Assembly (NCBI RefSeq): GCF_001428895.1
Contig: NZ_LMJA01000003.1
Coordinates: forward strand, 63,560-127,559
Direction of reading: 5' to 3'
Length of the DNA stretch: 64,000 bases
Origin: Mycobacterium sp. Root265
GTDB taxonomy: Bacteria; Actinomycetota; Actinomycetes; Mycobacteriales; Mycobacteriaceae
Position numbers and translations under genes: made by a program. A model generated the notes under the pieces. It saw only the letters and a list, made by a program, of their open reading frames with translations, was not told the DNA's origin and did not search any database. Each line of letters starts with the position of its first letter. Positions within the stretch are counted from its first letter, which is position 1. Positions 10,579 through 55,688 of this stretch are shown piece after piece.

Positions 10579-11487
10579 TCAACGCTCAATCTGTTTGGCG
10601 AAGCGGATCTCTCGTACCGAACCGCCGGGCACGCTCAGCGCCTCGCCGGTACTGACCGTAACCCCCACGCCGTAGGACTGCTGCAGCAACGTGAGGCGCT
10701 GCATCCCGGGACTGCGGTTGAACACGTCCTGCAGGGCGTGTGGCGGCCCCAGCGCGATGACGGCATACGGACTGGTGATCGGGCGGTTGTCGACGAGGAT
10801 GCCGCCGCCGGCCTGCCGGATGGTGACATTGGGACCGATCCGCACCCCGCCGACCGCGATCGCCTCGGCTCCCCCGACCCACAGCGAGTTGACCACCAGC
10901 TGCAGATCTCGGTCCAGGATCGCCTGCTGGCTGCCCGCGACCCGCTGTTTGGACACGTCGGTGAGATCGCGGGACATGCCGGGGTCGGTCACGGTGACCT
11001 CAAGGCCGGGCCCGATCGCGGGGGTGACCGCGGCCTCGAACTCCGCCTCGTCGAGCGCGGCGAGCAGCGCCCGGCCCTGTGCGTCGCCGGCCAGGCGGCT
11101 GCGGCGCTCGGTCTCCACCTCGGCGGCCAGCCCGTCCCTGGTTGCCTCGACGGCGTCGGTGCGGTTCTCGCCGGTCCGCACGCTGTCGGCCAGCACCAGC
11201 TGGGTCTGCCGATTGGCCGGCGCCACCGACTGCGCCTGCGCGGCGGCCACGGCGAACACCACCGCCACGGTCAACCCGGCCAGCAATGTCCAGCCCCCGG
11301 AGCGCAACCGGCCGGCGGGCCGGTCGTGGCGGGCCGACGCGGCGGCCGCGTAACCGGGGTCGAGGTGATCGGAGAGCAGCGAACGTAGCAGCGACGGCAC
11401 CGGGATGCGTTGCGGCGCACCGGCTTCGTGATGGTTGAGTCCGGCCTCGGGGTGATAGCCACCCAGCGAACTCACGGGATCAACCAT
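10579..11487 (-). CDS. DUF881 membrane-anchored protein (Rv1823-like)
   Basis: A 302-residue protein with an N-terminal cytoplasmic region of about 75 residues, one membrane helix (GGWTLLAGLTVAVVFAVAAA) and an extracytoplasmic DUF881 domain. The domain has LVVNSLWVGGAEAIAVGG, then PYAVIALGPPHALQDVF and SVREIRFAKQIER. It is a paralogue of the 259-residue protein on the other side of the small basic protein gene. The ATG at 11487 overlaps the end of pgsA by 8 bases, indicating coupled translation. Confidence 0.9.
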   Translation of the reverse strand: MVDPVSSLGGYHPEAGLNHHEAGAPQRIPVPSLLRSLLSDHLDPGYAAAASARHDRPAGRLRSGGWTLLAGLTVAVVFAVAAAQAQSVAPANRQTQLVLADSVRTGENRTDAVEATRDGLAAEVETERRSRLAGDAQGRALLAALDEAEFEAAVTPAIGPGLEVTVTDPGMSRDLTDVSKQRVAGSQQAILDRDLQLVVNSLWVGGAEAIAVGGVRIGPNVTIRQAGGGILVDNRPITSPYAVIALGPPHALQDVFNRSPGMQRLTLLQQSYGVGVTVSTGEALSVPGGSVREIRFAKQIER

Positions 11488-43269: not shown

Positions 43270-44709
43270 TCAGCCCGCGGGCACCCAGTTTCCGTGGAAG
43301 CCGGCGGGCACCCGGTGCGGCAGTTTGACCGCGGCCATCGGTTCCAGCGTCCGGGCATCCACGATCGCCAGCTCACTGCGGTCGGTCGGCCGGTCGTAGA
43401 CGTAGCCCATCAGCACGCCGTCATCCTCGTCGGCATCCGGAGCGGCCGGGTGAAAGACGAACTCCCCCAGCGACTTGTCCACGCCGAAGGACCGTGCCTG
43501 GCTGCTCCCGCCGACGAAGTCGTGCTTGAGCAGCGTGCCGGTCCCACCGGTACCCTCGCCGACCGCGGGCGCGTAACCGTAGCGGTGCCGCTTACCGACG
43601 AGCCGCTCATCGACGCGCGGGAACTCCTGTCCGCGATCGTCGATCCGCGACTCACGCACCTTGCCGTCGGCGAGGTCTACCGTCCAGCGATCCAGCGTCG
43701 GCAGACCCTCGTTCGGCCCGAGGTGGTCGGTGTCGAACATCTTCGGGTGCCGGATCACGTCGAGCACAACCGTCTCGCCGTCGTCGTAGGCGTTCATCGG
43801 GTGAAAGACGTAGCAAGGCTCCACGTCGAACCAGCGCACGTCGGCGCTGCCGCCGTCCCGCGGCATCACCCCGACCCGGGCGGGGTAGCGCGGGTTCCAC
43901 GAGTAGGGGAACCGGCGGTCGGCGCTCATCCCGGACGGTGTCCTCGCGCTGATCGGGTCGGGGATGCGGACGCGACCGATCAACGCGGACAACAGGAGCC
44001 GCGCCGGCAGCCGAAGCCCGCGGGGCACCGTCATCTCCGCGGCCTGGCGGCCGTCGAAGGTGACCGGTAGGTCGTAGAAGACGACGTGTCGCTCCGTCAG
44101 CGAGAAGTCGTGCATCATCGGGCTGCCCGTGACCTCGATGTCGACGGTGCGTCGCGCCCGGCCGTCGACGCCGATCACCGAGTACTGCACGGTGTTACCG
44201 CGATACATGTTGTAGGACACCGCATGTAGTTCACCGGTGTCCGGGTCGCGCTTCGGGTGTGCGGTGTAGCCACCCGTGATCGTGCCGTCGAAGTCGCAGG
44301 GTCCCACCGTGTCGAGCTCATCGGTCAGCTCGTAGTTCGCGACGCCGCCCTCGACCAGTGCCACCGTCTTGCCGGCATGTCCGATCACGTTGGTGTTGGC
44401 ACCGAGCGCGGAGATCCCGGTGTGCCCGGTGCGCCGCTCCTCACCGAGCATGCGGGCTACGTGCGGGCTGCGGACCCACCGGTTCCGGTACCACTCGGCC
44501 TTGCCGTCGCGGATACGCAGACCGTGCACCATGCCGTCGCCGATGAACCAGTGGTATAGCTCGGGATCGATCTCCCCGATCGGGTTCGGGCCGTTTCGCA
44601 GGTAGCGGCCGTCCAAGAAGTCGGGGATCGTGCCGGACACGTCGAGGTCGGTCAGCGTGACCTCCTCGTCGATCGGCGCGAACGGTCCCTCGAGGTAGCG
44701 GTTGGTCAT
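43270..44709 (-). CDS. Carotenoid oxygenase (carotenoid/stilbene cleavage dioxygenase)
   Basis: A 479-residue beta-propeller dioxygenase. The four iron-ligand histidines are visible in TAHPKRD, MMHDFSLTERH, YVFHPMNAY and PAGFHGNW. The N-terminal FLDGRYLRNGPNP signature is complete. It cleaves a conjugated double bond of carotenoids, apocarotenoids or stilbene-type phenolics with O2. No signal peptide. Divergent from a TetR gene across 66 bases holding two identical 13-base operators, so it is almost surely repressed by that regulator. Confidence 0.93.
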   Translation of the reverse strand: MTNRYLEGPFAPIDEEVTLTDLDVSGTIPDFLDGRYLRNGPNPIGEIDPELYHWFIGDGMVHGLRIRDGKAEWYRNRWVRSPHVARMLGEERRTGHTGISALGANTNVIGHAGKTVALVEGGVANYELTDELDTVGPCDFDGTITGGYTAHPKRDPDTGELHAVSYNMYRGNTVQYSVIGVDGRARRTVDIEVTGSPMMHDFSLTERHVVFYDLPVTFDGRQAAEMTVPRGLRLPARLLLSALIGRVRIPDPISARTPSGMSADRRFPYSWNPRYPARVGVMPRDGGSADVRWFDVEPCYVFHPMNAYDDGETVVLDVIRHPKMFDTDHLGPNEGLPTLDRWTVDLADGKVRESRIDDRGQEFPRVDERLVGKRHRYGYAPAVGEGTGGTGTLLKHDFVGGSSQARSFGVDKSLGEFVFHPAAPDADEDDGVLMGYVYDRPTDRSELAIVDARTLEPMAAVKLPHRVPAGFHGNWVPAG

Positions 44710-44775: not shown

Positions 44776-45438
44776 GTGAGTGATGTCAGGGAACGGTTGA
44801 TCGAGGGCGGTATGCGAATACTCGAGCGCGACGGGTTGCAGGCACTGAGCGTCCGCAGCCTTGCCGCCGAGGTGGGAACCTCGACGATGGCCGTGTACAC
44901 CCACTTCGGCGGGATGACCGGCGTCATCGACGCGCTGGCCGACGAGGCGTTCGCGCGGTTCACCCGGGTCTTGACCGATGCCGAGCAGACCGACGATCCG
45001 GTCCGCGACTTCTTCGTCATGGGTGCGGCCTACCGAGCATTCGCTCTCGCGAACCCGCAGCGTTACCAGCTGATCTTCGGCACCACGTCTCCGGCGTCGG
45101 TGGTCGGTCAGCGCACCGACGTCACCAGCACCGGAAGTGCCAACGATCGTGCCGAGCAGGCGGAATCCTTTGAGGCACTGCGACATGCCGTTCGCCGGAT
45201 GATCGCATCGGGCCGCATCCGCGACGACGGTGAACTGAATGTCGCGGGCCGGCTCTGGAGCCTCGTTCACGGCGCGGTGATGCTCGAGCTGGCCGGCTTC
45301 TTCGGTCACGAGGGCCACGGCCTCACGCATGTCCTCGCACCGTTGACGGTCGATTGCGTCGTCGGGATGGGCGACGCACGGGCCGACACGGTCCAGTCAC
45401 TTGCCTCGGCAGGCGAGGTGCTCGCCCGCTCGCGCTGA
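44776..45438 (+). CDS. TetR-family regulator of the carotenoid oxygenase
   Basis: A 220-residue TetR regulator. The helix-turn-helix (about 5-50) is DGLQALSVRSLAAEVGTSTM, then AVYTHFGGMTGVIDALADEA. The C-terminal domain has FALANPQRYQLIFGT, the TetR_C_13 (WHG)-type segment common in mycobacteria. GTG start at 44776. It shares an intergenic region with the carotenoid oxygenase and two identical dyads lie between, so autorepression plus control of the oxygenase is likely; the ligand may be an apocarotenoid or aromatic. Confidence 0.92.
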   Translation: MSDVRERLIEGGMRILERDGLQALSVRSLAAEVGTSTMAVYTHFGGMTGVIDALADEAFARFTRVLTDAEQTDDPVRDFFVMGAAYRAFALANPQRYQLIFGTTSPASVVGQRTDVTSTGSANDRAEQAESFEALRHAVRRMIASGRIRDDGELNVAGRLWSLVHGAVMLELAGFFGHEGHGLTHVLAPLTVDCVVGMGDARADTVQSLASAGEVLARSR

Positions 45439-45474: not shown

Positions 45475-45915
45475 CTAGGCGAAGTACCTTCGGATCCCGG
45501 CCAGCATCGCGGCGTGCGCGGCGACCGCCTGCCGCGCGGTGTACCCGGTCAGCGGCCACGGCGCGCTGATGCTCAGCCGCTCGGTCAACCGGGTGCCCTC
45601 GTCGACCTCGTCGAAAGACACCCTGCCGCGCAACCGCACCCGCGGAAACTGCCGAGCCTCGGTCCAGACCTCGCCCACGACCGGCACATGCAACGTCGCG
45701 GTATAGGTGACCGGTAAGCTGCTGCGGCCGAATGGGATTCGGTCCTGCACCCGATAATCCGACACATAGCCGTCGGGTCCGACGGTGCGCGCGGTGCGCT
45801 GCACGGCGACGATCAGCGGGTGCAGCGCACGGAGGTTGTCGAGGTCGACGTAGAAGTCGCGGACGACGTCCGGCGCGGCCGGAATGACCTCACTGATCGT
45901 GCGCTGAGCACTCAC
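45475..45915 (-). CDS. SRPBCC (polyketide cyclase/START-like) family protein
   Basis: A 146-residue SRPBCC protein. The start VIPAAPDVVRDFYVDLDNLR and the end WPLTGYTARQAVAAHAAMLA fit the helix-grip fold with its C-terminal helix. Such proteins bind hydrophobic ligands or act as cyclases. The GTG at 45915 overlaps the methyltransferase stop (GTGA), so the two are coupled. Function unknown. Confidence 0.85.
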   Translation of the reverse strand: MSAQRTISEVIPAAPDVVRDFYVDLDNLRALHPLIVAVQRTARTVGPDGYVSDYRVQDRIPFGRSSLPVTYTATLHVPVVGEVWTEARQFPRVRLRGRVSFDEVDEGTRLTERLSISAPWPLTGYTARQAVAAHAAMLAGIRRYFA

Positions 45916-46829
45916 CCGAGTGTGGCGCTGACGTAGACGACGTCACCGAACGACGACAAGCCCTCGGCCGACGGCGGCAGCCCGTAGTCGGCGAACAGTT
46001 CCGAGCCTTTTCGCAGCGCAGTTGCCCAGCCCCGGCCGGCCAGGTAGCTGGCCGCCTCGGTCCGCTCACCGGCGTAGAACAGTTCCGCCACGTCCACCTC
46101 GTCCCCGAGGTCCATGCCCTTGGCCTGCCATTCCTGCTGGGTGGCGCGCATACGTTCGCTCATCTCCTGCAGATCCTCGACGCTGACCGTCGGGGTGTTC
46201 TCGGTGGCGATCATGCTGCCGGGGGCACTCAGCTCGGTGATGTTGTCCAGCAGGCGATCCTGCGCCTCGGGCGGAAGGTAGATGAGCAGGCCCTCGGCCA
46301 GCCAGGCCGTCGGCCGGTCGGTCGCGTAGCCGGCGGCACGCAGCGCGGCGGGCCAGTCATCACGCAGGTCGACGGCGATCGGGCGGTGCTCGGCGCCGGG
46401 CACCGCGCCCAGGTCGGCGAGCGTACGCGTCTTGAACGTGATGACATCGGTCTGATCCAGTTCGTAGACCGTCGCATCAGCAGGCCAGGGCAGCCGGTAG
46501 GCGCGAGCATCCAGACCGGAGGCAAGGATCACGAACTGGCGGATGCCGGCCGCCAGTGCCCCGGTGACGAATTCGTCGAACCAGCGGGTGCGGGCCGCGA
46601 TGCCGTCGGCCATGCGTACCGCGTCGGCGGGAACCTCGTCACCGGATTCACCGCGGGCGTGTCGGATGTAGGTGGGCACGCCCACCGCCGACACCAGCGC
46701 TTCGGCGTACGGGTCGTTCACTCCCGCCGTGCCGGACCGGGTCGCGATGGCCCGCTGCATGGCCACCACGGTGGCCGTCACGCCAACGCTCGAGGCCAGA
46801 TCCCAGGTGTCGTTGTCCGTTCGTCCCAT
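45912..46829 (-). CDS. SAM-dependent methyltransferase, TIGR00027 family
   Basis: A 305-residue methyltransferase of the mycobacterial leucine-carboxyl-methyltransferase-like group. Signatures are MQRAIATRS, NDPYAEAL, RTRWFDEF, QFVILASGLDARAYRLPWP (SAM loop) and WLAEGLLIYLPPEAQDRLLD. The family is greatly expanded in mycobacteria and its substrates are mostly unknown. A -10-like TAGACT lies eight bases before the ATG on the minus strand. Coupled to the SRPBCC gene; a pair for modifying a hydrophobic acid is conceivable but not shown. Confidence 0.93.
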   Translation of the reverse strand: MGRTDNDTWDLASSVGVTATVVAMQRAIATRSGTAGVNDPYAEALVSAVGVPTYIRHARGESGDEVPADAVRMADGIAARTRWFDEFVTGALAAGIRQFVILASGLDARAYRLPWPADATVYELDQTDVITFKTRTLADLGAVPGAEHRPIAVDLRDDWPAALRAAGYATDRPTAWLAEGLLIYLPPEAQDRLLDNITELSAPGSMIATENTPTVSVEDLQEMSERMRATQQEWQAKGMDLGDEVDVAELFYAGERTEAASYLAGRGWATALRKGSELFADYGLPPSAEGLSSFGDVVYVSATLG

Positions 46830-46855
46830 AGTTAGACAGTCTACGCTTCATCGCG

Positions 46856-47464
46856 TCACGCCTCGGGCGGGCCGACACTGGACATCACCAACTGCAGGAA
46901 GGTCCGGTACAGATCCTCGCCGTCGAGGTGACTGGCCAGCGTGACACCGTCGTTGGTGGCCAGCAGTACCCGGGCCAGCGGCTCGGCCGGAATCTTCAAC
47001 GAGCCGCCCAGTCGCGCAACGCCTTTGGAGATGTACTCGGCCAGTGAGCGCACCGTCTCGCGACGCTGCACGGCCACTCGATCGCGCGCGGCGGGGTTGC
47101 GCAGCAAGAACAGGGTGAACTCGTGGTTCAGCGCGGCGGCCTGTTGTGCGTCGGTGGCACCGCTGAGCACCCGCCAACGTTCGGCGAAGCCTTCCACATC
47201 GATATCGGCGAACCGGTCGAAGGATTCCATCACATCGGCGAACCCGTCGAGGAAGCGCTGGCGGTGCCGCTCGATCACCGCGAGGAACAGTTCGTCCTTG
47301 CCGCCGAACTGCGCATAGATCGCACCGCGGGTGTAGCCGGCCGCCTCGGCGATGTCCTCCAGCGAACCCGCGTACCCACGGCCGGCGAAGATCTTCTCGG
47401 CCGCATCGAGCAGCACCGTGCGGGTCTGCTCCATGCGCCGCTCTCTGGTCCAGCGCTCGGTCAT
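46856..47464 (-). CDS. TetR-family regulator divergent from the Rieske oxygenase operon
   Basis: A 202-residue TetR regulator. The helix-turn-helix (about 12-55) has FAGRGYAGSLEDIAEAAGYT and RGAIYAQFGGKDELFLAVIE. The C-terminal domain is of the TetR_C_39-like AcrR type. The start is the ATG at 47464 (MTERWTRERR). It lies divergent to the Rieske operon; the 138-base gap has a promoter-overlapping dyad. It most likely represses that operon and responds to its substrate. Confidence 0.92.
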   Translation of the reverse strand: MTERWTRERRMEQTRTVLLDAAEKIFAGRGYAGSLEDIAEAAGYTRGAIYAQFGGKDELFLAVIERHRQRFLDGFADVMESFDRFADIDVEGFAERWRVLSGATDAQQAAALNHEFTLFLLRNPAARDRVAVQRRETVRSLAEYISKGVARLGGSLKIPAEPLARVLLATNDGVTLASHLDGEDLYRTFLQLVMSSVGPPEA

Positions 47465-47493
47465 CGCCCCATTCTCGCAAACATCAATCTCAA

Positions 47494-47529
47494 ATACACC
47501 CTTGTATCTGAAATTCATCTCTGTATTAT
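47494..47529 (+). promoter_or_regulatory. Promoter and overlapping dyad of the Rieske oxygenase operon
   Basis: TTGTAT (47502-47507) and TATTAT (47524-47529) are 16 bases apart and make a good SigA-type promoter. The -35 lies in the dyad ATACA-ccct-TGTAT (47494-47507), so a repressor there would block transcription. A second small dyad, GTGAC-tgcc-GTCAC, is at 47531-47544, near the expected start point. Confidence 0.55.
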
Positions 47530-47602
47530 CGTGACTGCCGTCACAGCCCCGACGCCGCCGTCGCGTCTTCCGCGAACACCCGCCCGCAGAAGGGAACCCT
47601 CG

Positions 47603-48958
47603 ATGTCCATCGATTCCGCACAAACCGCCCGCCCAGGTGAATGGGTCGACTCCGACGGCCTGAGCCCCGACGATGCGAGCGCGCTGTTCCGTATGCAGAT
47701 CCCGACCGACCGCTACACCTCGAAGGACTTCGTGAACCGGGAGCGCGAGGCCATCTGGATGCGGGTCTGGCAGATCGTCGGCCGCGTCGACGAGCTGGAG
47801 AAGACCGGGGACTTCAAGGAGTACCGCATCTTCGACCAGTCCTTTGTGGTGATGCGCGGAAATGACGGCGCGCTACGGGGATTCGTCAACGCCTGTCGGC
47901 ACCGCGGGAACCCGCTGTTCAGCGGACAGGGACACGCGAAACAACGCATCGTCTGCCAGTACCATCTGTGGTCCTACGACCAGCAGGGAAAGCTGCGCGG
48001 CTGTTCCAAACCCGAGATCGACAAGGACGACTACGGCCTGCTGGAGGTCCCGGTGGACACCTTTGCCGGTTTCGTCTTCCTCAACCCCGACCCCAACGCG
48101 GCGCCGCTGCGAGATTTCTTGGGCGAGGACGTCATCCGCATCCTGGAGCCCTACCACCTCGACCAGATGACCACCGTGCTCAACGTGCGGGAGGCCCTGG
48201 ACTGCAACTGGAAGGTGGTGATGGACGCCTTCGAGGAGGGTTACCACGTCTCCGGGATCCACCCACAGCTGCTGCGGGTCCTGGTCATCGACCCCAGCAA
48301 GGTGAAGTACCGCTTCCTGGACAAACACAGCATCGCCGTCGCCCCGTTCGAGGTCGCCCACGTCGAGGGCATGGGACCGGAGAAGCAGGTCGAGGGCATC
48401 ATGGAGCTCCCCGAAACCTTCCCGGGAGTGGTGCGGGTGCTCCCCCGGTTCACCGAACTGGTCGACGAAAACCGCACCGCCGACGGCACTCTGGTGTTCC
48501 CCGAGGATGTCACCGGACGCACCCTGCTACAGCAGGCCACCCGCGACACCCTGTCCCGCGACGGACTCGACGTGGACGGACTGACCGACGCACAGATGAG
48601 CGACAACCACGGCTGGGTGCTGTTCCCGAACTTCTTCATGACCATCCGGGCCGGTGAGGCGACCATCATCATGTCCACCCCGCACCCCGACGGCGACCCG
48701 AACCGCTGCATCTGGCACATCACCAGCTTCATGTGGCTGCCCGAGGAGCACCGCAAGGCGTTCGCGGCGGACCTCATCGATGTCCAGGAACCGGGCAGCT
48801 TCAAGTATTTCGAAGCGCTGCAACAGGATTACGAACAGATGCCCCGCCAGCAGATGGGCCTGCGCAACGCCCGCCTGGACCATATGGCGCTGGTCAACGA
48901 GGAAGTGGTCATCGCGCACTATCACTCCGTCATCGACCGCTACCTGGCGGCCGTCTGA
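47603..48958 (+). CDS. Rieske non-heme iron oxygenase, large (alpha) subunit
   Basis: A 451-residue ring-hydroxylating-type oxygenase. The Rieske cluster ligands are Cys98-x-His100 (ACRHRGN) and Cys118-x2-His121 (VCQYHLWSY). The mononuclear iron site is FEEGYHVSGIHPQ with His215 and His220. The catalytic C-terminal domain ends HYHSVIDRYLAAV. AGAAGGG precedes the ATG at 47603. It needs electrons from a ferredoxin/reductase not encoded nearby. First gene of a five-gene operon; its stop overlaps the next start (TGATG). An aromatic or polycyclic (possibly steroid-like) substrate is likely. Confidence 0.95.
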   Translation: MSIDSAQTARPGEWVDSDGLSPDDASALFRMQIPTDRYTSKDFVNREREAIWMRVWQIVGRVDELEKTGDFKEYRIFDQSFVVMRGNDGALRGFVNACRHRGNPLFSGQGHAKQRIVCQYHLWSYDQQGKLRGCSKPEIDKDDYGLLEVPVDTFAGFVFLNPDPNAAPLRDFLGEDVIRILEPYHLDQMTTVLNVREALDCNWKVVMDAFEEGYHVSGIHPQLLRVLVIDPSKVKYRFLDKHSIAVAPFEVAHVEGMGPEKQVEGIMELPETFPGVVRVLPRFTELVDENRTADGTLVFPEDVTGRTLLQQATRDTLSRDGLDVDGLTDAQMSDNHGWVLFPNFFMTIRAGEATIIMSTPHPDGDPNRCIWHITSFMWLPEEHRKAFAADLIDVQEPGSFKYFEALQQDYEQMPRQQMGLRNARLDHMALVNEEVVIAHYHSVIDRYLAAV

Positions 48959-49380
48959 TGCCCGAACTCGCCGAGCTCCTCACCCGGCACACCGGGCGCA
49001 GCCGCACCGTGCTGGAATACGCCGCCACCACCGGCCGCCTCGTGGGTGAGGCAAAGACGCCGGGTTTCACCGAGACCGGCTGGGCACCGTTGGCCGACCT
49101 GGTCGACACCGAGAACTTCCTGCGCGTCGGTGCTTTCAAGGAGGAGATGGACTGGGCCGGCTACACCGCCTTCCTCACCGGCTGGGCGACCACCTCCGAA
49201 TGGGAGTGCACGTTCAAACGCATCACCGAACACGACGACCTGGTGTTCCTGGAACTCGAAGAGCGCAGTGTCGTCGGCGATTTCCGTAGCGTGGTGAATT
49301 CGCTGTCGGTCTATCAGTTCAGCGATGACGGCCGGATCCGCCGTCTCGACCTGTACCTGCAGATGGCGCTGCCTTCGTGA
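48958..49380 (+). CDS. SnoaL-like (NTF2-fold) protein
   Basis: A 140-residue protein. The second half, ECTFKRITEHDDLVFLELEE followed by VNSLSVYQFSDDGRIRRLDL, has the last strands of an NTF2-like fold. Such small proteins act as cyclases, isomerases, hydratases or as beta subunits of oxygenases. The beta subunits of Rieske dioxygenases share this fold, but their length is usually 160-190. The ATG at 48958 overlaps the Rieske stop, so the gene is translationally coupled. Confidence 0.82.
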   Translation: MPELAELLTRHTGRSRTVLEYAATTGRLVGEAKTPGFTETGWAPLADLVDTENFLRVGAFKEEMDWAGYTAFLTGWATTSEWECTFKRITEHDDLVFLELEERSVVGDFRSVVNSLSVYQFSDDGRIRRLDLYLQMALPS

Positions 49381-49997
49381 CCGAGACACCGCGTATGGCG
49401 CCGCTGGCCCCCGATCAATGGGGCGACCCCGAATACGCCGCGTTCGGCGCGCTGCTCGGCTTGCCCGCCGACAAGGTGCCCAGGGCAGGTTCCGGAGAGC
49501 CCTACGACCCGCTGAACTTCGACATCATCGGGATGCTGGCCCGCCACCCCGAGATGGCCCGGTTGTTCCTGCAGTTCAACGGTTTCCTGCTGCAGCGCGG
49601 AGAACTGCCGGCACGGCTGCGTGAACTGATCATCCTGCGGGTCGCGCACCGGCACCGCTCGGCGTTCGAATGGGGCCAGCACGTCAGGTTGGGTGCCGCC
49701 GTCGGGATCACCGACGACGATGTCAGCGCACTGGCCGAGGGCAATGACGGGTTCGACGGCACAGACCGACTGGTGCTCGACGCCGTCGACGAGGTGATCG
49801 CCGACGGGAAGGCGCACTGGCCGACCTGGCAGCGGCTCGTCGGCGAACTGGGCGAACACGCCGCGATGGAGGTCATCTTCCTGATCGGCACCTACACCCT
49901 GACCGCGATGGCCTTCGGTACCTGGGGCTTACAAGCCAAACCGGGCAGCGCACCGCTGCCGACGGACTCGACCACGACAGAGGAGCAAGCGCAGTGA
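49377..49997 (+). CDS. Carboxymuconolactone decarboxylase / AhpD-like family protein
   Basis: A 206-residue protein of the CMD family. The core is LPARLRELIILRVAHRHRSA, then FEWGQHVRLG, with the His of the EWxxH motif. The redox Cys pair of AhpD (ExxxCxxC) is absent, so it is closer to carboxymuconolactone decarboxylases. A gamma-lactone decarboxylation or isomerisation is inferred. The GTG overlaps the previous stop (GTGA, 49377-49380) and its own stop overlaps the next start. Confidence 0.88.
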   Translation: MTETPRMAPLAPDQWGDPEYAAFGALLGLPADKVPRAGSGEPYDPLNFDIIGMLARHPEMARLFLQFNGFLLQRGELPARLRELIILRVAHRHRSAFEWGQHVRLGAAVGITDDDVSALAEGNDGFDGTDRLVLDAVDEVIADGKAHWPTWQRLVGELGEHAAMEVIFLIGTYTLTAMAFGTWGLQAKPGSAPLPTDSTTTEEQAQ

Positions 49998-50518
49998 ACC
50001 TGGAAGAGCGTATCGCCAAGCACCGCCGGATGGCCGAGAGCTACCGCGACAAGTACGTGCTGCAGAAGGTCGCCGACGGCGAGAGCTATGACGAGTGGGA
50101 GTTCACCGACGATGCGGTCTACACCTCCCCCTACTTCGTCGCCGACCAGGAACTGGTGCTCAAAGATGTGGCGACACACTGGGATACCGCGGCCACCGTG
50201 GAAGCCAAGGCCTACGGCATCACCTTCCCGGACTGGAAGCCCGTCGACTACAAGGTCTGGCCCGCCGAGAACGGCTTCGTGATGCGCTACCGCTGGCAGG
50301 GCACGAACGTCAACGACGGCAAGGTGATGGGCTTCTACTCGATCAGTTTCGTCGACACCAACGACGACGCCCAGATCACCCACTGGTCCACCTACGTCAA
50401 CGACGAGGAATACGGCCCGTTCCTGGAGGCCGCCATCGGGGCGCGCGGACCGTTCCACGGGGATTCCTACATGCAGGCGCTGGCACAGCATTTCGAGAAA
50501 CACGGACTGAGCTTCTAG
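49994..50518 (+). CDS. SnoaL-like / dehydratase-type protein of unknown function
   Basis: A 174-residue protein without signal peptide. The segment ESYDEWEFTDDAVYTSPYFV, followed by WPAENGFVMRYRWQGTNVND and ITHWSTYVNDEEYGPFLEAA, is compatible with an NTF2-like fold, which is only inferred. It could be the small partner of the oxygenase, or an isomerase. GTG start at 49994 with GAGGAG upstream and a GTGA overlap with the CMD-like gene. Seven bases before the P450 gene. Confidence 0.75.
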   Translation: MNLEERIAKHRRMAESYRDKYVLQKVADGESYDEWEFTDDAVYTSPYFVADQELVLKDVATHWDTAATVEAKAYGITFPDWKPVDYKVWPAENGFVMRYRWQGTNVNDGKVMGFYSISFVDTNDDAQITHWSTYVNDEEYGPFLEAAIGARGPFHGDSYMQALAQHFEKHGLSF

Positions 50519-50525
50519 GGAGCCG

Positions 50526-51731
50526 ATGATGACGACCAGCGCCACCGACAAGGTGTATTACGACCCGTGGGATGCGGACCTGAATGCGAACCCGTACCCG
50601 ATGTTCAAGCGTTTCCGCGACGAAGCGCCGCTGTACCACAACGAGACCCACGACTTCTATGCCGTCAGCCGCTTCGAGGACGTGAACCGGGCGCTGGTGG
50701 ATCACGCCACGTTCAGCTCGGCACGCGGCGCGGTGCTGGAAATCATCAAGGCGGGCATCGAGATTCCGGCGGGCACCCTGATCTTCGAGGACCCGCCGAT
50801 CCACGATATCCACCGCAACCTGCTGTCGCGGGCCTTCACGCCCCGCAAGATCAACGCGCTGGAACCCAGGGTGCGCGAGTTCACCGCGCGGTGCCTGGAT
50901 CCGCTGGTCGGTGGCGACCGGTTCGATTTCGTCAAGGATCTCGGCGCCGTGATGCCGCTGCGCGTCGTCAGCGCGCTGTTCGGTATTCCGGAGGACTACC
51001 AGAATCGTGTGCTGGCCGACGGCGACAAGTATGTGCGCACCGAGCGCGGCGCCCAGATGACCGACAACCCCGACGGTCCGATCACCGACGGCGAGTTCTT
51101 CGCCGAGTTCGTCGACTGGCGGATCGCCCACCCGGCCGACGATCTCACCACCGAACTGCTGAACGCCGAGTTCACCGACGAGACGGGCACCACCCGCAAG
51201 CTGCGCCGCGAGGAGCTGCTGCTGTTCATGTCCGTTGTCGCGGTAGCCGGGTCGGAGACCACCACCCGCCTGATCGGCTGGGCGGGCAAGCTGCTGTCGG
51301 AACACCCCGATCAGCGCCGGAAGCTGGTCGCCGATCGATCGCTGGTACCCGGTGCGGTCGAGGAGGTCCTGCGGTTCGAGCCGCCGGCGCTGCAGGCCGC
51401 CCGCTACGTCACCCGCGATGCCGAATTCCAGGGCTCGACGGTGCCCGAGGGAAGCGCGATCATCCTGTTGATCGGTGCGGCCAACCGCGACGAGCGCCGG
51501 TTCGGGGAGGACGCGGAGCGGTTCGATGTCACCCGGTCACCACGCCAGCACCTGTCGTTCGGCGTCGGGGCGCACTACTGCCTGGGCAATGCCCTGGCGC
51601 GCATCGAGGGCCGGATTGCCTTGAACGAGATCATGAATCGTTTTCCCGACTGGGAGGTCGATCTCGATGCCGCGGTGTTCTCCTCGGCTTCGGTGGTCCG
51701 CGGCTGGGACAGCATGCCCGCGCGGGTCTGA
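50526..51731 (+). CDS. Cytochrome P450
   Basis: A 401-residue soluble P450. The I-helix reads VVAVAGSETTTRLIGW, the K-helix ExxR lies in EEVLRFEPPA, and the heme-binding loop is HLSFGVGAHYCLGNALARI with Cys352. All essential motifs are intact. The I-helix has Gly-Ser-Glu-Thr where many P450s have Ala-Gly-x-Asp/Glu-Thr, still a normal variant. It is the last gene of the Rieske operon; the ATG at 50526 is used (another follows at 50529). It gives the operon a second oxygenase, needing its own redox partners from elsewhere. Confidence 0.95.
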   Translation: MMTTSATDKVYYDPWDADLNANPYPMFKRFRDEAPLYHNETHDFYAVSRFEDVNRALVDHATFSSARGAVLEIIKAGIEIPAGTLIFEDPPIHDIHRNLLSRAFTPRKINALEPRVREFTARCLDPLVGGDRFDFVKDLGAVMPLRVVSALFGIPEDYQNRVLADGDKYVRTERGAQMTDNPDGPITDGEFFAEFVDWRIAHPADDLTTELLNAEFTDETGTTRKLRREELLLFMSVVAVAGSETTTRLIGWAGKLLSEHPDQRRKLVADRSLVPGAVEEVLRFEPPALQAARYVTRDAEFQGSTVPEGSAIILLIGAANRDERRFGEDAERFDVTRSPRQHLSFGVGAHYCLGNALARIEGRIALNEIMNRFPDWEVDLDAAVFSSASVVRGWDSMPARV

Positions 51732-51738
51732 CCTGTTG

Positions 51739-52926
51739 TCAGGGTAGGGCGCCCAGCACCGGGTCGACCGGCGGGGCGGGCGGCGGCAGGTGCTCGACCG
51801 GAGCCGCAAGCGCCTCCGGGGCCGGCGCGACGACCGCCGGCGGCGGCGGGGCCGGCACGAACGGCGGTGCCAACCAGAACGGTGGCGGCGGCGCGACCGG
51901 TGCGGGCGGAAGAACCTCCGGCGCGGCCACCGGTGCCGCAGCCGGTGCGGGCTGCTCCGGCACGACGAGCGGCGCCGCGGGAACCGGAGTCGCGTCGGGG
52001 GCGGGCAGTTGCGGTGCCGCGAGCGGCTCGGCGCTCACCGGCGGCGCCACCGGGACCGACAGTTCGTCGGGGACCGACGGTTCGACGGGCACGGACGGTT
52101 CGGCCACCGGCTGGGGTTGCGGCAGGGCCAGCTGTACCGGCGGTGCGCTCACCTCGGCAAGGGTGGGCGTCGGCTCCGGGACCGCGGCCATCGGCTGCGC
52201 CGGCGGCTGCTGCGGTACCACCTGGGTGGTCTGCGCTGTCGGTGCCGAGGTGCTGCCGGCCAGCGCCGCTTCGGTGGGCTGTGTTTCGGTTCCGACGAAC
52301 TGCGAACCGACCGCGAACAGGGCGACCACCGCGGTCACCGCTGCCGCCGACACCAGACGGGCGCCCGATACCGCCGGGGTCCACTCGGGAACCCAATTCC
52401 GGCGGGCACGCTCCACCAGGACAGGTTCGGCCGGCGCGGCGTCGGTGACGACGGCCTGCGCGGCGTCATAAGCCGGTGTCTGCCCCGCATCGGGCCCACA
52501 GATCACGTCGTGTTCGACGAACGCCGTCTCGCCCTCGGCATCGGTCTCGGTGTCGTCGGCGAGCATCCCGGCCAGCAGGCCGCAGAGGTCCGTCCGCTCG
52601 ACCCGGTCGGCGGGTGGCACGTCGCTGTCCAGCGGTGTGACCTGACGGACCGAGCGCACATCGGGGCAGCCCGCGGTTCGCAGTTCCGCGAGCAGGGTGA
52701 TGACCTGTTCCTCGACGTCCTGACTCCAGCAGACCCCGATCGAGTCGATCCGCCGGCCGCTGCTCGCGGCGATGGATTGAGCGCCGCGGACGGCGGCAAG
52801 ACAGCGGGGTACCAGGTCATCGAGACTGCGGACGCCGAATTTGTCGTCGTCGACGGGCGCGGTGCCTTCGACGAGTACCCAGCCGACACCGGCTGCTGTC
52901 ACCGACAGTCCAAGTACGGTCTCCAC
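51739..52926 (-). CDS. Proline-rich single-pass membrane protein of a mycobacterial hypothetical family
   Basis: A 395-residue protein in three parts. An N-terminal domain (about 1-150, VLGLSVTAAGVGWVLVEGTA, with LDDLVPRCLAAVRGA) resembles the actin-like ATPase start seen in mycobacterial DUF7159-type proteins. One membrane helix follows (VSAAAVTAVVALFAVGSQFV), then about 180 residues rich in Pro/Ala/Val. The tail probably spans the cell wall. Function unknown. GTG at 52926. Seven bases from the convergent P450 gene. Confidence 0.8.
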   Translation of the reverse strand: METVLGLSVTAAGVGWVLVEGTAPVDDDKFGVRSLDDLVPRCLAAVRGAQSIAASSGRRIDSIGVCWSQDVEEQVITLLAELRTAGCPDVRSVRQVTPLDSDVPPADRVERTDLCGLLAGMLADDTETDAEGETAFVEHDVICGPDAGQTPAYDAAQAVVTDAAPAEPVLVERARRNWVPEWTPAVSGARLVSAAAVTAVVALFAVGSQFVGTETQPTEAALAGSTSAPTAQTTQVVPQQPPAQPMAAVPEPTPTLAEVSAPPVQLALPQPQPVAEPSVPVEPSVPDELSVPVAPPVSAEPLAAPQLPAPDATPVPAAPLVVPEQPAPAAAPVAAPEVLPPAPVAPPPPFWLAPPFVPAPPPPAVVAPAPEALAAPVEHLPPPAPPVDPVLGALP

Positions 52927-53149: not shown

Positions 53150-53914
53150 CTACCTGCGCACCGCCACCATCCGGTGTTCGACGACCCCGAAGATGCCGTC
53201 ACTGAGCTTGCCCAGCACCGCCAGCAGCACGATCGACAGCAGCATCACGTCGGTCCGCCCGGTGTTCTGACTGTCGATGAGCAGAAAGCCGAGACCCTTC
53301 GAGGACGCGATGAGCTCCGCCGCGACCAGGAACAGCCAGGCGTTGGCGAGCCCGAGCCGCAGCCCGTTCACCAGCGTCGGCGCCGCCGCAGGCAACAACA
53401 CCGTCAGCAACAGCGCGGGGCCGCGGCGGCCGTAGGCCCGCCCGACCTCGACGAGTTGCGGATCCACGTGCGACAGCGCCGACGCGGTCGTGGTGTAGAC
53501 GGGGAAGAAGGCGCCGATCGCGATCAGCAGGACCTTCGGCTCCTCACCGATCCCGAACCACAGCAGCAGCAGCGGCACCCACGCCAGCGACGGCACGGTG
53601 CGCAGCGCCGCGACGGTCGGCCCGAACAGTCGTTGCACGCTCACCGACAGTCCGACCAGCGAACCCAGAGCCAGCCCGGCGAGTGCCCCGGACAGATAGC
53701 CGACGACCACCCTGGACAGGCTGGTGCCCAGGTGCGTCCACAGCTCGCCGCGGCTGATGAGCTCGCGCCACGCGCTCACCACATCGGCGGGCGGCGGTAG
53801 CTGGCCGGCCGAGAAGACCCCGCCCGCCACCGCGAGCTGCCACACCACCAGCACGGCGATCGGCACGATCAGCCCCACCAACGCCGCCGGGGCGCGGCGC
53901 AGCGTTGCGGTCAG
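53150..53914 (-). CDS. ABC transporter permease (SsuC/TauC type)
   Basis: A permease of about 254 residues with five to six membrane helices. The EAA loop is VEVGRAYGRRGPALLLTVLL, followed by PAAAPTLVNGLRLGLANAWL, typical of sulfonate, taurine or nitrate permeases. The start is problematic. No ATG or GTG precedes the first helix in frame; a CTG at 53914 overlapping the previous stop (CTGA) gives a normal length, and a TTG at 53881 is the alternative. Works with the binding protein and ATPase next door. Confidence 0.88.
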   Translation of the reverse strand: MTATLRRAPAALVGLIVPIAVLVVWQLAVAGGVFSAGQLPPPADVVSAWRELISRGELWTHLGTSLSRVVVGYLSGALAGLALGSLVGLSVSVQRLFGPTVAALRTVPSLAWVPLLLLWFGIGEEPKVLLIAIGAFFPVYTTTASALSHVDPQLVEVGRAYGRRGPALLLTVLLPAAAPTLVNGLRLGLANAWLFLVAAELIASSKGLGFLLIDSQNTGRTDVMLLSIVLLAVLGKLSDGIFGVVEHRMVAVRR

Positions 53915-54879
53915 CTTGCGGACTGCTGGGCGAACTTCGGTTCGATCAGTGTCTCCAGGGCCTGCTGTCCCGCTTCCTCGGACTTGATGTCGCCGTCGCC
54001 CACCGCGATCGGCAGGATGACCGTCAACACGTCGATCTGGGCCTGCCCCGGTGTCGGATCGACCTTCAGATCCGTGCGCTTCAGCACTTCGCCCGCCACG
54101 CTCGGCGAGATCTTCGCTTCCCGCGCCAGCAGTTCCGTCAACTCGTTCGGGTGCGCGATAGCCCATGCGCGGGCCTCCTCATAGACGTCGACGACGGATT
54201 GCACGGCCTCGGGGTTGCCGGAGATGAAGTCCTCGCGGGCATTGAGCGTGCCGTAGCTGTTGAAGTCGGGGTTGCGGTAGAGCAGCCGCGAACCGGACTC
54301 CTGCACCGTCTGCGCGATGAACGGGTCCAGGCCCGACCAGGCGTCGACGTCACCGCGCTCCAGGGCCGTCTTCCCGTCGGCGTGCTGCAGGTTGACGATC
54401 TCCACATCGCTGCGGGACAGCCCGGCCGCCTTCAGCGACTGCAACAGGAAGTAGTACGGGTCGGTGCCCTTGGTCACCGCGATCTTCTTACCGCGCAGTG
54501 CGGCGACGGTCGTGATCGGTGAATCCTTGGCCACCACCAACGCCGCCCATTCGGGCTTGCTGTAGATGTCGACGACCTTGATCGGGGTGCCGTTGGCGCG
54601 GGCCACCAGCGCGGCCGCCCCGGCGGTGGAACCGAGATCCAGCGCGTCCGAGCGCAGCGCCTCGTTGGCCTTGTTGCTGCCCGCCGACAGCACCCAGGTC
54701 ACGTTGTAGCCCTGGTTCTCCAGCAGTTTCTGGTCGCGGATGACCAGGCTCAGCGGGTTGTAGTACGCATAGTCGAGTCGGATGTCCTTCGCGGTGTCCG
54801 CACCGTCACCGGAGCCGCACGCCGAGGCCGTCCAGGCCAGACCGGCGATCACCAGGGCTATCAGCCCGCGAGCCTTCAT
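53911..54879 (-). CDS. ABC transporter substrate-binding protein (SsuA/TauA type)
   Basis: A 322-residue lipoprotein-like binding protein. The signal peptide MKARGLIALVIAGLAWTASA is followed by Cys21 (weak lipobox ASAC). The family body includes DYAYYNPLSLVIRDQKLLEN, LRGKKIAVTKGTDPYYFLLQ and GDVDAWSGLDPFIAQTVQES. These match aliphatic sulfonate/nitrate/taurine binding proteins. The substrate is not certain; an alkanesulfonate is the usual call. The ATG overlaps the ATPase stop (ATGA). Confidence 0.92.
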   Translation of the reverse strand: MKARGLIALVIAGLAWTASACGSGDGADTAKDIRLDYAYYNPLSLVIRDQKLLENQGYNVTWVLSAGSNKANEALRSDALDLGSTAGAAALVARANGTPIKVVDIYSKPEWAALVVAKDSPITTVAALRGKKIAVTKGTDPYYFLLQSLKAAGLSRSDVEIVNLQHADGKTALERGDVDAWSGLDPFIAQTVQESGSRLLYRNPDFNSYGTLNAREDFISGNPEAVQSVVDVYEEARAWAIAHPNELTELLAREAKISPSVAGEVLKRTDLKVDPTPGQAQIDVLTVILPIAVGDGDIKSEEAGQQALETLIEPKFAQQSAS

Positions 54880-55688
54880 GCCGAAATTTCCTTCCGAGGG
54901 TGGTTTTCCGGGTCGTCGGCCGTGCGCCGCGGCAGCCCGAGTTCGTCGAGCAGGGTGATGCGCAACGCCGCCAGCTCCGGATCGGCGCGATCGCGTGGCT
55001 TGGTGATCGAGACATCGTGTGTCGCAGCGATTCCCGCCGCACCCGAGGCGTCGACGCGCAGGATGAGGACCCGATCGGCGAGGATCAGTGCTTCATCGAC
55101 GTCGTGGGTGACCAGCAGTGTGGTGATACCCGCCGTCTGCTGCACCTCGTCGAGCAGATCCTGCATCCGCAGCCGGGTCAGCGCGTCCAGCGCGGCCAGC
55201 GGCTCGTCGAGCAACAGCACGCCAGGTGTGCGCGCGAGCGCGCGGGCCAGTCCGGCCCGCTGAGCCATGCCGCCGGAGACCTGCCGGGGCCGGTACCCGG
55301 CGAAACCCCGGAGCCCGACGACGTCGAGCCAGTGCGCCACCAGCTCGTCACCTTCGGCGCGGGAGGTGCCCGCGGGCAGTCCGTAGGCGACATTGCCCGC
55401 CAGCGTGCGCCACGGCAGCAGACGCGGTTCCTGGAACACCACGGCGCAGCGCGGATCGATACCGCGCACCGGTTTTCCGTTGATGTCGATATGACCTTCG
55501 GTCGGCTCGTCGAGCCCGGCGATCAACCTCAGGAGAGTGGACTTGCCGCTACCGGATGCGCCGAGGAAGGCGACGACCTCGCCGGGGGCGATCTCGATGT
55601 CGATATCGCGAAGAACGGTGCGCTCGCCGAACACCTTGCCGACACCGCGCAGCGAAACGCCCGCCGGCATCGGTGTAGTCGACGTCAC
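54876..55688 (-). CDS. ABC transporter ATP-binding protein (SsuB/TauB type)
   Basis: A 270-residue ATPase. Walker A is LGASGSGKSTLLRLIAG, the Q-loop VVFQEPRLLPWRT, the signature VSGGMAQRAGLARALA and Walker B LLLDEPLAALD; the H-loop His is in VTHDVDEAL. The RLLPW segment after the Q-loop is the hallmark of the nitrate/sulfonate/taurine group. First gene of the operon, GTG start at 55688; 54 bases downstream of the TetR gene. Confidence 0.94.
   Translation of the reverse strand: MTSTTPMPAGVSLRGVGKVFGERTVLRDIDIEIAPGEVVAFLGASGSGKSTLLRLIAGLDEPTEGHIDINGKPVRGIDPRCAVVFQEPRLLPWRTLAGNVAYGLPAGTSRAEGDELVAHWLDVVGLRGFAGYRPRQVSGGMAQRAGLARALARTPGVLLLDEPLAALDALTRLRMQDLLDEVQQTAGITTLLVTHDVDEALILADRVLILRVDASGAAGIAATHDVSITKPRDRADPELAALRITLLDELGLPRRTADDPENHPRKEISA

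Follow-up and report, generated by a model that had tools for sequence, protein, structure and literature searches.

Layout of the operon

The stretch of DNA analyzed here (the window) comprises 64,000 nucleotides of Mycobacterium sp. Root265 (contig NZ_LMJA01000003.1, positions 63,560 to 127,559) and holds, at 46856–51731, an operon in which the gene for a TetR-family regulator diverges from genes for a Rieske oxygenase, a SnoaL-like protein, a carboxymuconolactone decarboxylase-like (CMD-like) protein, a further SnoaL-like protein and a cytochrome P450, all on the other strand. The TetR protein (46856–47464, minus strand, 202 amino acids) matches PF00440 (TetR_N) with 56.3 bits (cut-off 24). 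On the plus strand, the Rieske non-haem iron oxygenase (47603–48958, 451 amino acids; PF00355 at 64.2 bits and PF00848 at 77.4 bits) is followed through a TGATG overlap by SnoaL-like protein 1 (SnoaL1; 48958–49380, 140 amino acids), a near-constant neighbor of the Rieske gene, and through a GTGA overlap by the CMD-like protein (49377–49997, 206 amino acids, with an alternative ATG at 49395; PF02627 at 46.2 bits, cut-off 23). A second GTGA overlap joins the CMD-like gene to that for SnoaL-like protein 2 (SnoaL2; 49994–50518, 174 amino acids), and a 7-base gap separates the latter from the P450 gene (50526–51731, 401 amino acids, or 400 from the second ATG at 50529; PF00067 at 101 bits). The five genes are confirmed as a real coupled operon facing the TetR gene: the coordinates agree with the overlaps and the last gap that an earlier note on this DNA had reported, and that note was also correct in finding neither a ferredoxin nor a reductase within the operon.

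The family labels in the earlier note are backed by Pfam for the Rieske (with Ring_hydroxyl_A), CMD, P450 and TetR_N proteins, but neither small protein reaches a SnoaL cut-off (SnoaL1 scores 17.7 bits against the SnoaL_2 model, below its cut-off of 27, and no SnoaL Pfam model matched SnoaL2). The three terminator-like sites found, against 2.7 expected, all lie inside genes. A plasmid origin was considered and rejected: a search of the plasmid collection with the Rieske protein gave no match at E 1e-60, and the GC content resembles that of the rest of the window.

Promoter, operator boxes and regulon

The region between the TetR and Rieske genes contains an operator dyad, TCAAATACA-CCCT-TGTATCTGA (47490–47511), that is kept in relatives and whose core, ATACA-N4-TGTAT (box 1, 47494–47507), covers a −35-like hexamer and is the only exact operator site in the genome. 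A second box, ATTCATCTCTGTAT (47513–47526), agrees with the core at 9/10 positions and lies 19 bp after box 1, and a third, GTGACTGCCGTCAC (47531–47544), is a palindrome of the form GTGA-N6-TCAC directly after a −10-like hexamer. The promoter, as read by eye on the plus strand (47502–47529), consists of TTGTAT (47502–47507), a 16-nt spacer and TATTAT (47524–47529), with 8/12 consensus positions. A SigA-type promoter with a dyad over its −35 element had been proposed earlier; the dyad is real, conserved and placed over a −35-like hexamer, but the SigA promoter itself is a by-eye reading, as a consensus scan of 46700–52000 returned 0 promoter-like sites (0.5 expected in shuffles). A generic inverted-repeat finder at its settings likewise reported no pair in the promoter, though the dyad is evident from the sequence and from its conservation.

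Relatives of the Rieske protein were collected in a one-genome-per-species search that confirmed 109 of them; the 80 best (loci L013–L092) were combined with the window into a set of 81 loci. Counts are quoted from the 80 named loci where possible, to avoid duplicated genomes, since a wider operator set of 99 loci contains some of the same genomes under two names; genes outside the window were called with a home-made codon-score caller, and their starts are approximate. An exact core lies in the 700 bp before the Rieske gene in 42/81 loci, comprising 42 of the 55 loci with a TetR gene and none of the 26 without (Fisher 7e-12, relatedness ignored). The 81 loci contain 63 exact core sites, and the five that are not upstream of a Rieske gene stand before SnoaL2 (four) or before a TetR gene (one). 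In the wider 99 loci, 65 of 78 exact sites are upstream of Rieske and two are within genes; eight scrambled palindromes gave three sites in total in the same loci, two of them upstream of Rieske. The whole-genome scan covered 18 genomes (~107 Mb), namely 17 of the 18 in which the P450 and Rieske genes lie within 40 kb of each other, plus G224, and yielded 25 exact core sites against 0 for the reversed pattern. When assigned by reading their positions against the gene hit positions, 19 of these fall at Rieske promoters, four at SnoaL2 promoters, one before a TetR-CMD-SnoaL2-P450 operon in G224 and one elsewhere. A chance palindrome is ruled out by the scrambled-palindrome and whole-genome counts. 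The single exact site outside the system in the 18 genomes (G249:C1:6000770, L165:4271) has adjoining genes that both lack a match to the cluster set.

The arrangement of the boxes is also conserved. Wherever two exact boxes occur upstream of Rieske they are spaced by 19 bp (15/15 pairs), and the third box is present in 45/81 Rieske promoter regions, all 45 of which belong to loci that hold a TetR gene (five scrambled palindromes gave one match in total); its half-sites are identical in the eight aligned promoters, window included. In 46 pairings with an exact box, the third box follows at 36–37 bp in 26 and at 17–18 bp in 17, with three elsewhere. We take its GTGA-N6-TCAC form to resemble the CRP consensus. 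The regions upstream of SnoaL2 contain an exact box in 6/11 cases and none in five, one of which (L141) sits inside an operon; no third box was seen in these 11 regions.

Since an identical operator box stands before the Rieske unit and, in these six regions, before the SnoaL2 unit, we conclude that both units probably belong to one regulon, in line with the earlier proposal that the two oxygenases are under one control. In a tree of 68 TetR homologues, the 10 TetRs that diverge from SnoaL2 form one clade (support 100/97), with the window TetR outside it and its deeper placement weakly supported. The regulatory account is limited to TetR-bearing lineages, because the TetR gene is missing from 26 of the 80 loci, none of which has the exact operator. 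The regulon is now better defined than the earlier note could know.

Recurrence and variation of the gene set

Within 8 kb of the Rieske gene, the 80 loci contain SnoaL1 in 76 cases, SnoaL2 in 55, TetR in 54, a second P450 family in 33, CMD in 30, SDR in 28 and a P450 of the window type in six. In 20/80 loci, Rieske, SnoaL1 and SnoaL2 occur on one strand and within 8 kb together with a member of either P450 family and a member of one of two CMD families, so that a chance collection of genes is rejected; the earlier note had suggested looking for the same set in other genomes, and such a search thus found a CMD and a P450 alongside Rieske and the two small proteins. Nine loci share the tight downstream order SnoaL2, SnoaL1, P450 (of the other family, 31% identical to the window P450 in the one pair compared), SDR and CMD. 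The gene set is therefore recurrent; the window represents a variant of it that has a different P450 and no SDR.

Across the genus sample of 347 genomes, 103 carry this Rieske gene. Orthologues of the P450 (≥75% identity) are present in 37, and 27 of these 37 also have the Rieske gene, against 103/347 overall (hypergeometric 9.5e-9, relatedness ignored), with the two genes no more than 40 kb apart in 18 of the 27. A gene order identical to that of the window (Rieske, SnoaL1, CMD, SnoaL2, P450) was found in the genome of the window, L015/G145, L018/G279, G034, G222 and G341. At eight further loci (L033, L043, L045, L052, L131, L132, L137 and L140), SnoaL2 (83–93% identical) and the P450 (77–88% identical) instead stand apart as a unit that has a divergent TetR gene of its own, located from adjoining to ~14 kb away from Rieske-SnoaL1. 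The colinear order at L033 is Rieske, SnoaL1, CMD, inward TetR, SnoaL2, P450, so the window operon could stem from the loss of that inner TetR gene and its promoter. The operon of G224 retains TetR (96% identical), CMD (82%), SnoaL2 (90%) and P450 (90%) and lacks Rieske-SnoaL1, a 67% identical Rieske gene being found ~1 Mb from it. A conserved trio of AveC-like, GvpN-like ATPase and VWA genes was also noted near the Rieske gene in L018, L043, L048 and L052 (families scanned in L052).

Four close relatives (L013, L014, L016 and L017) lack the P450 after SnoaL2. In L013 (M. frederiksbergense LB 501T), the match continues for 76 nt past SnoaL2 (10926–11001, corresponding to the first codons of the P450) and then resumes at window position 51730, a pattern indicating that the P450 gene is deleted there with its first-codon sequence left behind. 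The match in L014 resumes near window position 51715, and neither L016 nor L017 matches the P450 or the downstream sequence of the window. Another P450, 65% identical to that of the operon, is encoded elsewhere in the genome of the window (G000:C27:2358–3521). Therefore, in these four relatives the P450 would either not be needed by the remaining proteins or be replaced by a paralogue. The gene set is thus less constant than the earlier note implied: it recurs, but the P450 is absent from four relatives and Rieske-SnoaL1 from the G224 operon.

Encoded enzymes and proposed function

The Rieske residues C98, H100, C118, H121, E212, H215, H220 and D409 are invariant in 81/81 sequences. The closest solved structure in the PDB is CntA and the best NCBIfam match is GbcA, and Glu212 corresponds in the alignment to the bridging Glu of CntA (in an E-C-Y-H stretch), at a position where the dioxygenase 2ckf has Asp. 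In CntA, E205 is reported to pass electrons from one subunit to another (PMC7948474), and a cysteine pair has been described around the first iron-ligand His of the same enzyme (PMC10952381). That pair (Cys206/Cys209) is absent from the family, which has Gly213 and Val or Ile216 in 81/81, and the score of 120.9 bits with the GbcA equivalog model falls far below the cut-off of 670. Neither small protein matches PF00866 (Ring_hydroxyl_B) at E 0.1, and the whole genome contains no match to this model over the cut-off (one, below it, is on another contig). Because the bridging Glu is invariant and no PF00866 beta subunit exceeds the cut-off, we read the Rieske protein as a probable monooxygenase that would work like CntA and GbcA, without placing it with them in group V of the Rieske monooxygenases. 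It resembles the CntA/CntB and GbcA/GbcB systems, its nearest PDB and NCBIfam relatives, in the bridging Glu, in having no recognized beta subunit and in the GbcB/PaaE-like reductase of related gene clusters; it differs from them in its GbcA score, in the missing cysteine pair and in an operon that has P450, SnoaL-like and CMD-like genes with no reductase beside the Rieske gene. With the alpha3beta3 ring-hydroxylating dioxygenases (naphthalene and biphenyl type) it shares the Rieske and Ring_hydroxyl_A domains, but it has Glu for the bridging Asp, no recognized Ring_hydroxyl_B partner and no adjoining ferredoxin or ring-cleavage enzyme. None of its 34 PDB matches is named as the steroid 9-alpha-hydroxylase KshA (no direct comparison with KshA was run).

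Both small proteins are predicted to adopt the NTF2/SnoaL alpha+beta barrel fold, as in SnoaL, ketosteroid isomerase and limonene epoxide hydrolase, from which they differ in being 6–18% identical among the matches listed; a ring-hydroxylating beta subunit is not among the 50 structural matches listed for either, which is no exclusion of one. The CMD-like protein exceeds the cut-off for the gamma-carboxymuconolactone decarboxylase/AhpD family (PF02627) and matches the gamma-carboxymuconolactone decarboxylase structure 2af7 weakly (E 0.027). E83, S95 and H102 are invariant in the 21 aligned sequences and position 98 is Phe or Glu. The mark of AhpD-type peroxidases is a redox CxxC motif, whose cysteines are here replaced (Ser95, Phe or Glu98) in 21/21 sequences, so an AhpD-like redox role is unlikely. 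P450s carry a haem-binding FxxGxHxCxG motif and an I-helix AGxET motif, and the window P450 has both (FGVGAHYCLGNALA, FGVGAHYCLG, and AGSETT). Its best solved match in the PDB, over residues 17–400, is CYP130, which we take to come from Mycobacterium tuberculosis and which is a different protein in a different context.

Although the operon encodes no redox partner, candidates for it and for further steps lie elsewhere. In G177, G278, G231 and G331, the 12–15 kb between the P450 and Rieske genes contain an amidohydrolase, a MarR regulator, a PaaE/GbcB-like reductase, an SDR, TauD, another CMD, a second P450, DUF1330 and a further Rieske gene that is present twice, with a small-protein gene after each copy, as well as an aldehyde dehydrogenase in three of the four (families were scanned in G231 and assigned by clustering in the other three). 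In the genome of the window, C26 (~367–378 kb) carries two Rieske-small-protein pairs, an amidohydrolase, MarR, a reductase, an SDR, TauD and an aldehyde dehydrogenase, and C27 (~2–11 kb) the second P450 and DUF1330. The missing redox partner thus has a candidate answer, because a PaaE/GbcB-like reductase lies on C26 (G000:C26:371014–372024) that is 59% identical to the reductase clustered with Rieske in G231. Given the SDR, TauD, reductase, amidohydrolase and, mostly, aldehyde dehydrogenase genes that the clusters of the four genomes add, the earlier description of the operon as a nearly complete route is not supported. The same C26 cluster (G000:C26:367562–378234, L156) contains two other Rieske genes that are each followed by a gene for a 103–111 amino acid protein; such proteins occur in 16 loci, with 21 genes in each of two clusters, and the L131 homologue has no Pfam match.

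We consider it fairly probable (roughly 70%) that the locus is an inducible oxidation operon, for catabolism or detoxification, within one TetR regulon. A TetR dimer would bind the two boxes, which overlie the promoter at a spacing of 19 bp, and block both its own gene and the operon until released by a ligand (the substrate or an early product), and the further conserved, CRP-like palindrome may add another control. The Rieske monooxygenase, fed by a PaaE/GbcB-like reductase encoded elsewhere, would hydroxylate or dealkylate the substrate, and the P450 would make a second, separable hydroxylation; the two NTF2-fold proteins may isomerize, hydrate or cyclize intermediates, or SnoaL1 may be a partner of the Rieske protein, and the CMD-like protein, lacking the redox CxxC, would carry out a decarboxylation- or lyase-type step. 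Several observations weigh against this account. Exact boxes are missing upstream of Rieske in 13/55 TetR-bearing loci and from 5/11 SnoaL2 upstream regions, and G143 lacks exact sites altogether; that TetR acts as a repressor rather than an activator is suggested by its position. The P450, absent after SnoaL2 in the four close relatives named above, may not be a needed step. The candidate reductase is unlinked in this genome and may instead work with the other Rieske genes next to it, and the substrate may differ between lineages because TauD, the ABC importer and other neighbors vary. A bolder extension, which we hold as doubtful, is that a widespread, undescribed regulon of environmental mycobacteria with a three-box promoter is at hand, in which the Rieske protein and the NTF2-fold SnoaL1 would make up a two-component unit, SnoaL1 being no classical beta subunit and the whole representing a new architecture between alpha3 and alpha3beta3.

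The alternatives are taken in falling order of probability. That Rieske-SnoaL1-CMD and SnoaL2-P450 are unrelated in function and share a promoter by accident in this clade is unlikely: other species do keep them as separate units with different TetRs, the P450 is missing from four relatives and Rieske-SnoaL1 from the G224 operon, but the same operator box marks both units in several genomes and their co-occurrence exceeds expectation, at ≤40 kb in 18/27 genomes with both. We judge it distinctly unlikely that the operon N-demethylates or cleaves a quaternary amine or a betaine in the manner of CntA/GbcA, or acts on another small polar substrate. The best solved and NCBIfam matches (CntA and GbcA), the bridging Glu and the PaaE/GbcB-like reductase of a related cluster would suit such a route, as would the binding-protein family near Rieske in five loci of Rhodococcus, Williamsia and Actinomadura (Peripla_BP_6 in four of the five, as scanned). 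The set of Rhodococcus L056 continues into TauD, an SDR and a branched-chain-amino-acid-type ABC importer with a permease gene and two ATPase genes, a hint of a polar substrate in that case; L055 has a permease. However, the five loci include no mycobacterium, the GbcA score is 120.9 against 670 and the CntA cysteine pair is absent; to our knowledge, P450, SnoaL and CMD proteins are not expected in betaine-type routes.

An aromatic ring-hydroxylating dioxygenase that opens an aromatic or polycyclic aromatic hydrocarbon route, with one NTF2-fold protein as a divergent beta subunit, is improbable. Beta subunits of such enzymes do have an NTF2-like fold, the PF00848 and PF00355 matches are as expected and SnoaL1 stands beside Rieske in 76/80 loci, but the bridging residue is Glu in 81/81 rather than the Asp of 2ckf, PF00866 was found neither in the small proteins (E 0.1) nor over the cut-off in the genome, and a ring-cleavage dioxygenase is lacking among the 10 neighboring genes scanned; the aromatic or polycyclic substrate suggested in the earlier note is consequently not supported. 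Least probable is a tailoring role in making a secondary metabolite or cell lipid instead of a catabolic one. Biosynthetic pathways often include SnoaL/NTF2 proteins and P450s, and an AMP-binding ligase and a methyltransferase are encoded nearby, but there is no PKS, NRPS or terpene synthase in the same 10 neighbors, the loci viewed keep Rieske and SnoaL1 but differ in their other neighbors, and genes for aldehyde dehydrogenase, amidohydrolase and an ABC importer are found in related clusters. Routes for abscisic acid, steroids and terpenoids were also considered and are unsupported conjecture.

The set of genes and the accompanying DNA switch recur across many related bacteria and seem to be undescribed: as the earlier note had stated, no described pathway or publication on this set was found in the literature among the matches listed, yet about three in ten of the sampled genus genomes carry this Rieske gene. 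As the genome has just one such operon, with one TetR and one exact operator site, the inducer, and hence the substrate class, should be findable by a reporter screen, and the operon would show what a bridging-Glu Rieske enzyme does outside the betaine group.

Other genes surround the operon in the window. An RPE65-family (carotenoid-cleavage type) oxygenase gene (43270–44709) with a divergent TetR-family gene (44776–45438) adjoins it, and SRPBCC (Polyketide_cyc2) and LCM-type methyltransferase genes overlap head-to-tail at 45475–46829, with homologues adjoining the TetR gene in L166, L170 and L171. Downstream, at 53150–55688, are ABC importer genes for a permease and an ATPase (from the open reading frames) and an NMT1-like binding protein (from Pfam).

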